Assembly (NCBI GenBank): GCA_019314005.1 | Contig: JAFDAE010000162.1 | Coordinates: 1-10,663, forward strand | From: Deltaproteobacteria bacterium | GTDB lineage: Bacteria > Desulfobacterota > Desulfobacteria > C00003060 > C00003106 | DNA: 10,663 nt | Reading direction: 5' to 3' | Part shown: piece after piece, positions 3,201-10,663 of the stretch | How the letters are laid out: each line of letters starts with the position of its first letter | How positions within the stretch are numbered: position 1 is the first letter of the stretch | Position numbers and translations under genes: made by a program | Notes under the pieces: generated by a model | Seen by the model: the letters and a program-made list of their open reading frames with translations, nothing else | Database searches by the model: none | What the model was told of the DNA's origin: nothing

Positions 3201-4400
3201 ATGGCGAGACGAATCAGACAAATTTTTATTAGCACAGGAATTCTCCTTGGCCTTGTTGTTCTTTTGCTAATTGGTGTTTCCTTCTACCTGAAGACGGATC
3301 ATGCCCAGCGCCTGATTCAAGCCAAAGTGAACCAGGCCATTTCCGGCACCATCACATGGGAAGGGGGCGGGTTCTCCTTTTTTGGTAACAATGTTGAATT
3401 AAGTAACATCTCCGTCAAAGGACCGGCCAGGGAAAAGCTGATGACAATGGAGAGCCTTTCTGTGAACATATCCTGGGCTGCCCTTCTTATGGGGGAACTC
3501 GCTATTGAGACCGCCATGCTCCATACACCCCGGGTATGGCTTGGAACAGACGCGGAAGGGAAGCTCAACGTGATGCGGGCCTTTGAATCTTCCGGAGCTA
3601 AAAAACAAGAAGCTTCTAAAGGCGGATTCCCCTTCAACATTGCAGTCAGACATTTAAAGATCATGAATGGTTTTGTTTCTTTCAAAGGGGACGGAGGGGC
3701 TAAGGAGGAGAGAACTGACCGCGCAGTCCTGCACAATATTGAACTCACTGTGAGTGATGTAAACTTAATGAAGCGTATAGGCTGCGTAGATCTCCGAATC
3801 GATAAAGGGGAGATCCACATGGCAGGCATAGAAGCTGCCGTCGACGAAGTTAGGCTATATGGGGCGCTCAAAGAAGATCGAATTGATCCCCTGGTCCTTG
3901 CCGTAAAGATTAACGGCTCCACCTTGGAAATTTCGGGTAATGTCGGAAGCCTCTTTTCCGATCCCCTTCTGGATATTGTTCTTCAGGGCGAAATCTGTCT
4001 TCCCGAGATCCAGGAGATACTTCAGACCGGAACAGGGCTTACAGGAGTGGTTAAAACGAGTCTGACCGTGCGGGGTTCTGTGAACAACCCTGATGTGGCG
4101 TTGCTGATGGGCTATGGTGGGGGGAATCTCGCCGGCAACCGCATTGACGGGATGGAATTAAGCTGCCACATGGAGGACAGGTCCCTCACCATTGAGAACA
4201 TGAAGGTCCAAACAGGGAAGACCTGGCTTGAACTGGCAGGAAATTACGACTTCTCCTCCCAGGAACTCGCCGCCACGGTCAAACTGGAGTCTCCTGACCT
4301 GGCGGAGACTTTTTTTTCTGCCGGTCTTCCGGATATCCGTGGGAAGGTGAGTGGGGCGGTAACGTTAAGGGGAAAACTCACGTCTCTCTTGGCGGGTTAA
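3201..4400 (+). CDS. tamB: tamB-like fragment 1: membrane anchor and N-terminal AsmA/TamB region
   Basis: ATG 3201 is the first start after an in-frame TAA at 3189; the Shine-Dalgarno sequence is weak (TAAGAA, 3189-3194). Residues 1-8 are basic, and residues ~9-29 (ISTGILLGLVVLLLIGVSFYL) form one uncleaved signal-anchor helix, as expected for AsmA/TamB. Next come typical N-terminal features: a short helix with TDHAQRLIQAKVN, then strands GTITWEGGGFSFFGNNVELS and NISVKGP, and a segment describing 'WAALLMGELAIETAMLHTPRVWL'-type text that in this family defines the first beta-taco layers. Repeated G-x-(V/L)-x-x-P-x-x-x-L units appear near the end, such as GSVNNPDVALL. The frame stops at TAA 4398 inside what should be continuous domain sequence, and the protein text resumes in the +1 frame. 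Confidence 0.75.
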   Translation: MARRIRQIFISTGILLGLVVLLLIGVSFYLKTDHAQRLIQAKVNQAISGTITWEGGGFSFFGNNVELSNISVKGPAREKLMTMESLSVNISWAALLMGELAIETAMLHTPRVWLGTDAEGKLNVMRAFESSGAKKQEASKGGFPFNIAVRHLKIMNGFVSFKGDGGAKEERTDRAVLHNIELTVSDVNLMKRIGCVDLRIDKGEIHMAGIEAAVDEVRLYGALKEDRIDPLVLAVKINGSTLEISGNVGSLFSDPLLDIVLQGEICLPEIQEILQTGTGLTGVVKTSLTVRGSVNNPDVALLMGYGGGNLAGNRIDGMELSCHMEDRSLTIENMKVQTGKTWLELAGNYDFSSQELAATVKLESPDLAETFFSAGLPDIRGKVSGAVTLRGKLTSLLAG

Positions 4401-4494
4401 ACTTCGGAACGGTAGTTCCGCACTGAGTATTTCCGGCACGGTCCAGGCACTCGATACCACGTCCGGTCAGATTCTTGAGAACCCTGCCCTTGAC

Positions 4495-5439
4495 GTGGCG
4501 CTGACTGGAGATAAGCTTTTCATAGAAGATTTTTTCGAGGGACTGAAAGGGGAATTGTCACTGAGTTGTCATGTCAAGGGAGATGCTGCGGAGCCAAAAG
4601 GGAAGGTTTCCCTGCTGGGGAAGAATATTCGCATAGGTGACCAAGAAATCGACGGGGTTCAACTGACATCGCACATAGACGGTGAGAGGGTTCACGTTGA
4701 CTCATTTGTCGTGACAGTGGCAGAGGGAGAGAAGATACGTATAGATGGATGGGTATCCCTCAACAACTATGATCTGCAGATTGCATCTGATGGCATTTCG
4801 ATAGAGCGAATTTATGAACTTCAGGAACACCTGCCTGTTGAAGGTAAGGTTTTCTTTCACATTACCGGCCAGGGTAGTTTTCAGAATCCCGCACTTCAGG
4901 GTGTGGTGGGCTTAAGGGACCTCGGGTTAAGCAATGAAAGCCTTGAAGCCTTTCAGCTCCAGGTCAACGTTAAAAACCAGGACGTGCGAATCTACGGTAA
5001 ACTCCCTTTTGACATTGAAGGACGGCTCCAATTACAGACAAGAGATTTTTCAGTATCCGCCTTTTTTCATGAAACCGATTTAGCCCCCTATTTGAAAATA
5101 GCAGGTCGACACGAACTGAACGGTGCCATTACGGGAAAAATCAGGATAGAGGGGAATGCCGGCGCCCCGGATCAGATCAGGGCGAAGATAGATATATCCC
5201 AGCTGGATCTCTTTTGGGAGAAAACAGCTTTGGTCAAAGCCCGGCAGTTCAAGGTATCTTTGGAGGACAACAAGATTTTCGTGCCCCGTGTTTATCTTGA
5301 TCTTTGGAGGACAACAAGATTGTCGTGCCCCGTGTTTATCTTGACCTTCTCGAAGGGGGTTTCTTGGAACTCAAAGGAGGCGGCAAGCTTGCCGGTCCCC
5401 TTGACCTTGAGGCAAAGGGCCGCGTTCCCTTGCGAATGA
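4495..5439 (+). CDS. tamB: tamB-like fragment 2: middle of the beta-taco region, no true start
   Basis: The formal start is GTG 4495, but no Shine-Dalgarno sequence precedes it. TamB-like protein text in this frame already begins near 4390 (LRNGSSALSISGTVQAL and onward), so this is the continuation of fragment 1 and not a separate gene. It contains the family's G-x-x-x-x-P repeats (GDAAEPKGKVSLLG, GSFQNPALQGVVGL, GNAGAPDQIRAKI) and ends its meaningful part at DNKIFVPRVYLDL near 5300. The remaining ~45 codons to TGA 5437-5439 (WRTTRLSCP and onward) are out-of-frame reading caused by the 44-bp duplication. No membrane segment or signal peptide is present, so the piece would not be exported if made alone. 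Confidence 0.6.
   Translation: MALTGDKLFIEDFFEGLKGELSLSCHVKGDAAEPKGKVSLLGKNIRIGDQEIDGVQLTSHIDGERVHVDSFVVTVAEGEKIRIDGWVSLNNYDLQIASDGISIERIYELQEHLPVEGKVFFHITGQGSFQNPALQGVVGLRDLGLSNESLEAFQLQVNVKNQDVRIYGKLPFDIEGRLQLQTRDFSVSAFFHETDLAPYLKIAGRHELNGAITGKIRIEGNAGAPDQIRAKIDISQLDLFWEKTALVKARQFKVSLEDNKIFVPRVYLDLWRTTRLSCPVFILTFSKGVSWNSKEAASLPVPLTLRQRAAFPCE
5256..5343. repeat. 44-bp tandem duplication inside the tamB-like gene
   Basis: Copy 1 is 5256-5299 and copy 2 is 5300-5343. They are identical except for one base (T 5278 versus G 5322). Both copies can be read as LEDN-KI-(F/V)-VPRVYLDL, each in its own frame. Because 44 is not a multiple of three, the duplication shifts the reading frame. Removing one copy joins fragment 2 to fragment 3 seamlessly. 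It may be replication slippage, or an error joining noisy reads. Confidence 0.9.
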
Positions 5440-6500
5440 TCAACTTGCTCACCTACGCGCTTCCCGGTGTCACCGGACACATTAACTTCTCAGCCAAGGT
5501 TGCGTTGGAGGAGTTCAAGCCATCCAAAATCCTTGTCAAACTGACGGCCCGTGAGCTGCCGGTGATAGTTCCTGATAACTTGGAGATCCTTTTGGACGCA
5601 ACACTGGACATCCACGGCACACCGGATAAGTCCATAGTGCTGGGGGAAGTGGTGATTCTTGAAGGGACCTATTACAGAGATGTGAACTTGAATCTCCTCC
5701 AAGAGATTGGACAGAAGAAGCGGGAAGCAGCTCCCGTGCCTTCGCAGATTACTCAGCCTTTTCTTAAGAATATGATCTTTGACGTCACGGTGAAACACAG
5801 AGATCCCTTTGTTGTGGATAACAACTTGGCCTTGTTGACTGTAAAACCCGACCTCCGCCTACACGGGACATTGAATAACCCGCTTATCAGCGGACGAACC
5901 GAAGTAGACTCCGGGACCATAAGATACGGGAAAAAGGAGTTCGAGGTCACCAAAGGTATTTTTGATTTTATCAACCCTTACAAAATTGAGCCGACCATTG
6001 ATGTGAAGAGCGAAGTCAATATCCGAACATGGACGATCTTCTTGGATGTCAATGGCACACCGGACAACCTAAAGTTTACACTTACCTCAGATCCTCCCGA
6101 GCACGATGAAGACATCCTCTCTCTGCTAATCGTGGGAAAAACAACCCGGGAACTCATCGAGGGAGAAGGTGGGTCATCCCTGTCCACAACCGAGATGTTT
6201 GCAAACATTTTGGCAGGGGCAATGGGTGAAGAGATAGAGGAGGCCACAGGCCTCGATATTGTTGAGTTGGAGTACGAGGAAGCGGTGAGTGAAGAGGAGC
6301 CTGACACAATTAAAGTGACGGTCGGTGAGGAGCTCTCTCGTCGAGTAACGGTCAAATACGGGATAGAGACGAGAAGTGCCGAGGTGATTCAGCGAGTCGT
6401 TGCTGAATACAAATTCCTTGAAAATCTTTCAATGAATACCTTCCGGGATACTGAGGGGCAATTTGGCGGTGAGCTCCAATACAGACTCGAGTTCAGGTAA
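5304..6500 (+). CDS. tamB: tamB-like fragment 3: C-terminal TamB (DUF490) domain
   Basis: The formal start is TTG 5304 within the second copy of the duplication, with no convincing ribosome binding site. GGAGG at 5306-5310 could in principle serve the GTG at 5325, but the spacing is long. The ~399 residues hold the TamB C-terminal signature: G-x-x-x-V-D-S-G-T-I-R-Y-G (197-209) followed by FEVTKGIFDFINPYKIEPTI (213-232), then LTSDPPEHDEDILSLLIVGK (260-279), and a closing strand region that reads like a barrel-docking beta sheet. In characterised systems this end contacts the Omp85 partner. The next gene begins 15 bp after the TAA, which supports a tamB-tamA operon. Confidence 0.8.
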   Translation: MEDNKIVVPRVYLDLLEGGFLELKGGGKLAGPLDLEAKGRVPLRMINLLTYALPGVTGHINFSAKVALEEFKPSKILVKLTARELPVIVPDNLEILLDATLDIHGTPDKSIVLGEVVILEGTYYRDVNLNLLQEIGQKKREAAPVPSQITQPFLKNMIFDVTVKHRDPFVVDNNLALLTVKPDLRLHGTLNNPLISGRTEVDSGTIRYGKKEFEVTKGIFDFINPYKIEPTIDVKSEVNIRTWTIFLDVNGTPDNLKFTLTSDPPEHDEDILSLLIVGKTTRELIEGEGGSSLSTTEMFANILAGAMGEEIEEATGLDIVELEYEEAVSEEEPDTIKVTVGEELSRRVTVKYGIETRSAEVIQRVVAEYKFLENLSMNTFRDTEGQFGGELQYRLEFR

Positions 6501-9310: not shown

Positions 9311-9342
9311 TATGCAAAGGTCTCTAAGGGAGGAAAAGCGTG

Positions 9343-10422
9343 ATGAAAAGAATCGCTTTGATCAATCAAAAAGGCGGCTGTGGGAAAACGACAACAGCTA
9401 TAAATTTAGCTAGTTGTCTATCAATGGAAGGGAAGAAAGTCCTGCTGATCGACCTCGACCCTCAAGGACATTCAGCGATGGGATTGGGGGTAAAGCCCGA
9501 CGAGATAGAGAACAGCATCTTTGAGGTCTTACTCCGTAAGGTTTCTATAAGTGAGGCCATACAGACCGTAAGGGAAAACCTTGACGCTGTTTTCAGCAAT
9601 GTTGTTTTGAGCGCTTTTGAACAGATAATGGCAGGCGCCCCGGATCGGGAGTATAAACTTACCCGGTGTCTTGAGGAGATTGACAATCATTACGACTATC
9701 TCATTATTGATAATCCTCCTGGTGTAGGCCTTTTGACATTTAATGGGTTGATGGCATCCCAAGAAACAATAATTCCGGTTGACCCCAGTTCCTTTTCACT
9801 TCAGGGGTTAGAAAAGCTGCTTGAAACCATGCAACTCCTTGAGAAGAGCGCGGACCACAAACTTTCCATAAAGATTCTGGCGACCAACGTTGACCGCAGG
9901 ACCAGATTTGCAAGAGGCGTGGTAGAGGAGTTGAAGGCTAATTTCCCTGACCACTGCTTTAAGGCTATTATCAATACCTCCACCCGCTTGAGGGAAGCCG
10001 CAAGTCACGGAAAACCTATAGGCGAATATGACAAGAACTGCGCCGGCTTCCGAGACTATTACAACTTAACCGAAGAAATACTCACCGAAGTAGCTGAAGA
10101 AAAGACTGAGGTTTCTATCTTTGAGTCGCTTCTGAATGTTGACAGATCCCAACAAGGGCCTGAGGAAAAGGAGATTCTGTTCGCATTGGAGGCGCCCGAG
10201 GAAGAAAAGATCCAGATTGCCGGCGATTTTAATGGCTGGATGCCGGAGAACCTCCGTTTAACTTACTCCCAGGGCAGGCCCATGTGGCAGAAGATTAAAC
10301 GGCTCAAACCAGGCGACTACCAGTATAAGTACTTGATTGATAACAAATGGGTTGCCGATCCGGGAAACCATGACACAGTTGACGATTTGTTCGGAGGTGT
10401 AAATTCTATTATTCGTGTGTGA
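9343..10422 (+). CDS. ParA-family ATPase fused to a C-terminal CBM48/AMPK-beta-like glycogen-binding domain
   Basis: I chose ATG 9343 (9 nt after GGGAGG); GTG 9340 directly before it is also possible. Numbering from the ATG, residues ~1-250 are a ParA ATPase: deviant Walker A KGGCGKTT (10-17, signature K10, catalytic K15), Walker A' LIDLDPQG (35-42), Walker B LIIDNPP (120-126), a DRRTRFARGVVEEL segment (184-197) and the ParA-type REAASHGKPIGEYD ending. There is no MinD-type amphipathic tail. After a ~25-residue linker, residues ~276-359 match CBM48/AMPK1-CBM: AGDFNGW, PGDYQYKYLID, W-x-x-DP and FGGVNSIIRV. By manual alignment to AMPK beta1, the glycogen-contact residues W100, K126, W133 and N150 correspond to W299, K329, W336 and N354. 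ParA proteins position DNA or protein cargoes using nucleoid-bound ATPase cycles. A glycogen-directed role is inference. No ParB or parS is visible. Confidence 0.88.
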   Translation: MKRIALINQKGGCGKTTTAINLASCLSMEGKKVLLIDLDPQGHSAMGLGVKPDEIENSIFEVLLRKVSISEAIQTVRENLDAVFSNVVLSAFEQIMAGAPDREYKLTRCLEEIDNHYDYLIIDNPPGVGLLTFNGLMASQETIIPVDPSSFSLQGLEKLLETMQLLEKSADHKLSIKILATNVDRRTRFARGVVEELKANFPDHCFKAIINTSTRLREAASHGKPIGEYDKNCAGFRDYYNLTEEILTEVAEEKTEVSIFESLLNVDRSQQGPEEKEILFALEAPEEEKIQIAGDFNGWMPENLRLTYSQGRPMWQKIKRLKPGDYQYKYLIDNKWVADPGNHDTVDDLFGGVNSIIRV

Positions 10423-10514: not shown

Positions 10515-10663
10515 ATGGAAGAGAGAAAAAAGCGGGAAAGAAGCGTAGAAGAAGTAGCTCATTTGTTTTTGTCTCGCCGGAATCCCTCTGATCGAACAAC
10601 AGTTCCTACCAAGAGAGAATTTCAAGCCGATTCCGTCACGATTGCTCCTTTCTCTGACAGGAT
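10515..10663 (+). CDS. Start of an unrecognised protein, cut by the window end
   Basis: From ATG 10515 the frame stays open to the end of the window (49 full codons), with an in-frame TGA upstream at 10476. The predicted start is strongly charged (MEERKKRERSVEEVAHLFLS, then RRNP) and has no membrane segment or signal peptide, so a cytoplasmic protein is likely. No good Shine-Dalgarno sequence precedes the ATG, so the start is uncertain. It follows the ParA-CBM48 gene by ~90 bp on the same strand and may be in the same transcript, although the inverted repeat at 10440-10493 lies between them. I do not recognise the family. Confidence 0.5.
   Translation, partial: MEERKKRERSVEEVAHLFLSRRNPSDRTTVPTKREFQADSVTIAPFSDR

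Follow-up and report, generated by a model that had tools for sequence, protein, structure and literature searches.

The window analysed here is the whole 10,663-nt stretch of contig JAFDAE010000162.1 from a Deltaproteobacteria bacterium (assembly GCA_019314005.1). Close to its end lies a gene for a protein of 359 aa that joins a ParA-type ATPase to a carbohydrate-binding module (CBM); we refer to it as ParA-CBM. The gene occupies positions 9343..10422 of the + strand as a single open frame, with an ATG at 9343 and a stop at 10422; a GTG at 9340 is a possible alternative start. A ParA/Soj-class ATPase domain was delimited at residues ~1–250 (9343..10092, + strand) by Pfam, PDB matches and alignment, and an AMPK-beta-type glycogen-binding domain at residues ~277–359 (10171..10419, + strand) by Pfam and PDB profiles. 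The linker between them (residues ~251–276, 10093..10170, + strand) was modelled with low confidence, and its residues 253–272 had a predicted local distance difference test (pLDDT) score below 50. A second gene, hereafter the partner gene, starts at 10515 on the + strand. Its first 49 aa (10515..10661, MEERKKRERSVEEVAHLFLSRRNPSDR..., with the motif RSVEEVAHLFLS) lie within the window, and no stop precedes the window end. This gene had been overlooked in the first-pass annotation, which was made from the sequence alone.

The claim of that annotation that a complete ParA is followed by a complete glycogen-binding module was borne out. In the N-terminal part, Pfam detected AAA_31 at residues 1–176 (E 8.3e-55), with ParA and CbiA also matched. 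In the C-terminal part, AMPK1_CBM (PF16561) was detected at residues 288–359 (E 2e-10, 41.2 bits with a cut-off of 26.8). CBM_48 (PF02922) scored slightly below its cut-off (21.3 vs 22.4 bits); thus, "AMPK-beta-type" is more exact than the original label "CBM48". The PDB search assigned the ParA fold to the ATPase part (ParA, E 1.5e-64), for which the nearest folds and sequences were Soj/ParA. The C-terminal part matched the AMPK beta-1 glycogen-binding domain (E 1.2e-9 with a profile, 2.2e-7 with the single sequence), so the domain withstood the profile check. Support for the CBM fold comes from sequence profiles, as the fold search with the whole model was filled by the ATPase domain. A chance two-domain match is excluded, because both domains, PF16561 included, were found in all 120 homologues listed out of 6808 matches (5.8 billion proteins searched, 8000 scored). 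A 92% identical protein, P0002, is encoded on a contig of 46.9 kb.

Residues expected of both activities were retained. The window protein has the P-loop KGGCGKTT with K10 and K15, plus D37/D39, and this set, comprising the deviant Walker A signature lysine and the catalytic aspartates, was present in 39 out of 39 diverse aligned members. W299, W336, K10, C13 and H43 were invariant in the same alignment. In the PDB alignment, W100, K126, W133 and N150 of AMPK beta-1, which we take to be its glycogen-contact residues, align with W299, K329, W336 and N354 of ParA-CBM, so all four are kept, as had been proposed. Across the 39 members, position 329 was K (19), R (18) or Q (2), position 354 was mostly N (31) or D (6), and position 350, which corresponds to AMPK L146, was mostly F (18) or Y (12). 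Further relatives found by profile (22, including L165, which is the same as L065) all had W299, W336, C13 and H43, with K (17) or R (5) at position 329. R238 of Myxococcus xanthus ParA is reported to take part in DNA binding, and N64 is listed among its catalytic residues (PMC12462528). R215 of ParA-CBM occupies the R238 position, which is basic (K/R) in 35 of the 39 members, and H43 occupies that of N64; the hydrolysis rate may therefore differ from that of ParA.

We are highly confident that ParA-CBM represents a real and widespread ParA subfamily, undescribed in the literature searched and accompanied in much of its range by a co-encoded partner with an N-terminal motif. A scan of 84,980 species genomes yielded 545 relatives, from which 80 loci were kept. 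The match extended to at least residue 356 in 75 of these and ended at 342–344 in four; that of L071 ended at residue 300, without the CBM. Carrier records were titled Desulfobacterota/Deltaproteobacteria, Omnitrophota, Planctomycetota (mostly Phycisphaerae), Myxococcota, Nitrospirae, Acidobacteria, Eisenbacteria, Krumholzibacteriota, Latescibacterota, Auribacter and Gammaproteobacteria, about ten phyla overall. The architecture is thus not confined to one genome, and both aromatic residues, W299 and W336, are conserved among homologues (39/39 and 22/22), contrary to the outcome that the first-pass annotation had named as refuting its claim. Its remark that no described system with this architecture was known to it also stands for the open-access literature searched, from which subscription papers were mostly absent. 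Full-length ParA-CBM was encoded by 64 of the 97 Omnitrophota genomes sampled, where carriers were taken from the best matches and weak ones may be missing, and by five of 118 Desulfobacterota genomes (E 1e-85).

In a quick tree built from 83 ATPase domains, the 80 subfamily members separated from three canonical ParA with full support, the comparison being with these three proteins rather than with a survey of all ParA. The CBM label needs three changes on this tree, and the fusion may have had one origin. Neighbourhoods were compared for 73 intact loci (72 retrieved ones, L071 included, and the window). L006, L007, L008, L010, L026, L056, L075 and L076 were left out since the core gene was not picked, apparently because a longer opposite-strand frame was preferred. 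A further 23 regions gave 21 loci, with L164 (core not found) and L165 left out. C13 (KGGCGKT) was present in 73/73 intact loci, a count partly built in by the retrieval patterns (KGGCGKTT or GLLTFN). It was also present in 22/22 profile-found relatives and in 5/5 CBM-less ATPases inside the clade, and is thus a mark of the subfamily rather than of the fusion. At least 5000 plasmid records matched the ATPase; the ten listed matched residues ~1–260 only and none reached the CBM, leaving aside 31 records that cover at least 80% of the query. Matches in viral contigs (57 loci) all ended by residue 265 and so gave no hint of a viral origin. CBM-less ParA proteins with the KGGCGKT/DPQxH signature were seen in four Desulfobacterota genomes (L147, L148, L152 and L153), two of which (G116 and G192) encode ParA-CBM too; L148 adjoins a gene for a Wzz-type polysaccharide chain-length protein.

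The gene directly downstream of ParA-CBM has a variable body and often starts with [RK]xLxD[IV]SHxFLS, after which there is usually a linker and then a domain that resembles FlhG/MinD but is degenerate. A strict pattern of this motif, drawn up after inspecting adjacent genes, was found in 24 of 66 downstream-adjacent genes vs one of 949 non-adjacent genes. In a fairer test, a matrix built with the clade of the tested gene left out was scored on the 949 control genes: 16 of the 24 motifs ranked above all controls, four (L012, L032, L039 and L053) had one control equal or higher, and the remaining four (L020, L027, L037 and L046) had 2 to 19. The motif of the window partner, outside the training set, scored 25.1, above 949/949 controls, and for 13 other partner starts outside training, 0 to 3 controls were equal or higher. 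The motif gene was present at 33 of the 73 intact loci (30 first identified, plus L015, L021 and L030). At 23 loci, a conserved upstream gene of ~190 aa, c1, was present instead; no locus had both and 17 had neither (among these L077, with 273 bases after the stop). Read by eye, the 21 further loci had the motif gene (14, including L173, which was outside the scored set), c1 (five) or neither (two). The c1 gene, whose product in Omnitrophota resembles a membrane protein on visual inspection, is a different linked gene, never found alongside the motif gene. Its candidacy as a carrier of the same motif was rejected, as its scores with the downstream-trained matrix were not distinct from those of control genes; an earlier count of 21/55 upstream-adjacent motifs came from a pattern widened to admit c1. 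The CBM-less L071 retains the motif gene, which links the motif to the ATPase and not to the CBM.

Pfam named no ParB domain in ten partners scanned from loci other than the window, and the gene linked to ParA-CBM is the motif gene rather than an adjacent parB. CbiA passed in just two of the ten bodies. The FlhG assignment of the partner body rests on a 25-row profile and one model, which has a MinD-like fold. Among 25 aligned partners, the P-loop was kept by eye in L015 and L030 and partly in L019, and lost in most. The partners of L015 and L030 (Eisenbacteria-type loci) retain GGxxSPGKST, and, judging by this motif, their FlhG-like bodies may remain active ATPases. The L001 partner has a helix-turn-helix (HTH) domain plus RodZ_C. 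Known ParA/MinD partners activate the ATPase via a basic N-terminus, and by analogy the layout of the motif gene fits such activating partners. At 21 Omnitrophota loci, the gene for a protein with a lysine-rich tail closely follows ParA-CBM, within ~0.5 kb at all but one (e.g., L031 11457-12092 and L036 3609-4004). An EF-Tu-domain-2/U32-like part was matched weakly, below Pfam cut-offs, in L036 and gave no match in L031; this protein is a possible DNA-binding member of the ParA-CBM operon.

Compared with Soj/ParA of the chromosomal ParABS systems of Thermus thermophilus, Helicobacter pylori and M. xanthus, ParA-CBM differs by its C-terminal CBM, by KGGCGKT and DPQxH in place of the KGGVGKT and DPQxN of three canonical ParA, and by a partner that is not ParB. 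It shares the domain family (PF16561, CBM48-type) and the contact residues with the AMPK beta subunit; unlike in the latter, the domain is fused to a ParA ATPase and the kinase-binding region is lacking. The partners differ from the FlhG/FleN MinD-like ATPases by loss of the P-loop in most and by their own N-terminal motif. ParA-CBM resembles McdA of carboxysome positioning, a ParA-type ATPase for non-DNA cargo that works with the partner McdB (PMC10241942), and the partner motif resembles that of ParB N-termini in having a basic residue two before a leucine and a hydrophobic one three on (PMC12462528). LG[RK]GL occurs in 4/25 aligned partners and in 2/3 ParB starts, the third ParB reading LGRGM.

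Glycogen genes neighbour ParA-CBM in just one Omnitrophota clade and at a handful of other loci. In that clade, the gene two places upstream belongs to family GH57 (PF03065, E 4e-65), with c1 between it and ParA-CBM; this arrangement was seen at 11 of the 80 loci and in 4 of the 23 further regions. The nearest solved chains are named just "GH57 N-terminal domain-containing protein". The 11 loci make up the whole of a 12-member Omnitrophota clade except for L064, whose sequence begins too near c1 to tell about GH57. In L003, GlgB adjoins ParA-CBM, and in L001 it is the next gene but one, on the opposite strand; these two are the nearest relatives of the window ParA-CBM in the ATPase tree. At L144, ParA-CBM is preceded on its own strand by a gene for a carbohydrate phosphorylase (PF00343, E 2e-12), whose end is 292 bases away. 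The L003 record is titled Methanomassiliicoccales archaeon and has an archaeal-type HTH gene ~1.2 kb upstream of ParA-CBM; its GlgB and the one in L001 (Desulfobacterota) share 89% identity, which suggests a recent transfer or a chimeric assembly. Among 19 carrier genomes, matches were obtained to GlgA (17, 12 of them at E 1e-70 or better), GlgP (14), GH13 (10) and GH57 (17), with thresholds of E 0.001 for GlgA and GlgP, 1e-15 for GH13 and 1e-10 for GH57. In the 97 Omnitrophota genomes, GlgA was associated with ParA-CBM carriage (p 2.8e-4, or 2.0e-4 when G086, with ParA-CBM split over two contigs, is counted as a carrier rather than a non-carrier). In Desulfobacterota, GlgA was present in 4/5 full-length carriers vs 72/118 genomes overall, a comparison without power.

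We tentatively favour an ATPase-plus-activator system that tethers and spreads glycogen, or another alpha-glucan, on the nucleoid. By homology, ParA-CBM is expected to dimerise with ATP, to bind both DNA and alpha-glucan, and to be activated by its partner. It would be a ParA/Soj-type positioning ATPase that binds the nucleoid as an ATP dimer and has its own alpha-glucan-binding domain. The CBM, which judging by its conserved contact residues probably binds alpha-glucan, would tie the dimer to glycogen or another alpha-glucan; glycogen as the actual cargo is put forward only tentatively. A short N-terminal helix of the partner would dock on the dimer and trigger hydrolysis. The glycogen would be released or located by the partner, which varies with lineage (FlhG-like, HTH/RodZ-like or membrane-bound). 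Glycogen would then be tethered to and spread over the nucleoid rather than heaping at the poles. The fullest version, a dedicated glycogen positioning and inheritance system across about ten phyla, with an AMPK-type grip, nucleoid spreading and a co-encoded activator, is more doubtful again.

Several observations weigh against such tethering. In the 22 further, mostly Omnitrophota, relatives, position 354 (AMPK N150) was D in 16 and N in six, and the DNA-binding position was K/R in just 14. The ParB-pocket residues D110, V116, E117 and L192 are not retained. Equating the partner motif with that of ParB was rejected, as ParB starts scored -8.7 to -15.3, no better than most controls; the two are alike only in spacing and on visual comparison. 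Planctomycetes, mostly Phycisphaerae, account for 11 of the 17 loci that lack both linked genes. Control genomes also matched GlgA (12/14), GlgP (12/14) and GH57 (8/14), and once genomes under 1.3 Mb were removed, GlgA in Omnitrophota stood at 57/59 vs 21/25, no longer a significant difference (p 0.06). Two carriers, G013 (5.4 Mb, Myxococcota-type) and G002 (its record, L003, is masked in places), had none of GlgA, GlgP, GH13 and GH57 at the thresholds used. Tabulating neighbours, as the first-pass annotation had proposed, gave an alpha-glucan link in part of the family. Elsewhere, no glycogen family was among the commonest Pfam families of 205 neighbour genes outside Omnitrophota (216 minus 11 left out of two Pfam runs), the tallies covering the 25 commonest of 123 and of 94 families. 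Almost every family had just one or two members, so that single glycogen genes would be invisible. Finally, in known systems the cargo is bound by the partner and not by the ATPase (PMC10241942).

The chief rival to glycogen as cargo is a glycogen-sensing switch, in which alpha-glucan on the CBM would alter the ATPase or dimer state and so signal the level of stored carbon to the machinery of the cell cycle, of polarity or of the envelope, much as the AMPK beta subunit acts on its kinase. We consider it rather unlikely. The CBM is nearest to AMPK beta, itself a regulatory subunit, it is located on the ATPase and not on the partner, and the partners look regulatory (an FlhG/FleN-like domain; HTH plus RodZ_C in L001), but the regulatory target is not known and the low-confidence linker offers no obvious allosteric contact. 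Less likely still, the CBM fold may have been retained for another ligand (an envelope polysaccharide, an exopolysaccharide or a protein), in a system that positions or regulates envelope assembly. G013 without glycogen genes at the thresholds used, the envelope genes for BamA and a TamB-like protein upstream of ParA-CBM in the window, the membrane-protein-like c1 of Omnitrophota and the Wzz-type neighbour of L148 would suit such a ligand, whereas the invariance of both glucan-stacking tryptophans (39/39 and 22/22) fits retained alpha-glucan binding, and GH57, GlgB and phosphorylase neighbours also speak against it. An ordinary chromosome- or plasmid-partition ParA with a decorative domain is very improbable: its nearest folds and sequences are Soj/ParA, but ParB was named for none of the ten partners, the subfamily clade is separate from the three canonical ParA, a second ParA match was obtained in 59 of the 64 Omnitrophota carriers, with no CBM among the matches listed, no plasmid or viral record covers the CBM among the matches listed, and the family is conserved over about ten phyla.

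Should the tethering system be confirmed, it would bear on a real problem for bacteria, the sharing of glycogen between daughter cells. Glycogen of Escherichia coli csrA mutants is described as accumulating at old poles, where it is thought to displace the chromosome and end division (PMC4836754). A nucleoid-binding, glycogen-binding ATPase would answer this problem directly: both daughters would get carbon stores, granules would not displace the chromosome, and a positioning ATPase would grip its ligand itself, not via a partner. No storage polysaccharide was found as cargo of a positioning ATPase in the open-access literature searched. The two-domain protein, encoded by many uncultured bacteria and often beside a matching partner gene, points to a so far undescribed means of positioning stored sugar or of responding to it, and the partner motif would serve as a signature to find partners of orphan ParA proteins.

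Two other features of the window are of interest. The TamB-like gene (3201-6500) extends over three + strand frames (3201-4400, 4495-5439 and 5304-6500) and contains a short sequence, SLEDNKI[FV]VPRVYLDL, that is repeated near 5300, which suggests a decayed gene or an assembly fault. At 685-2865, a Sodium:dicarboxylate symporter domain is fused to a family-3 solute-binding domain in a predicted protein of 726 aa, taken to be an unusual transporter-receptor fusion.
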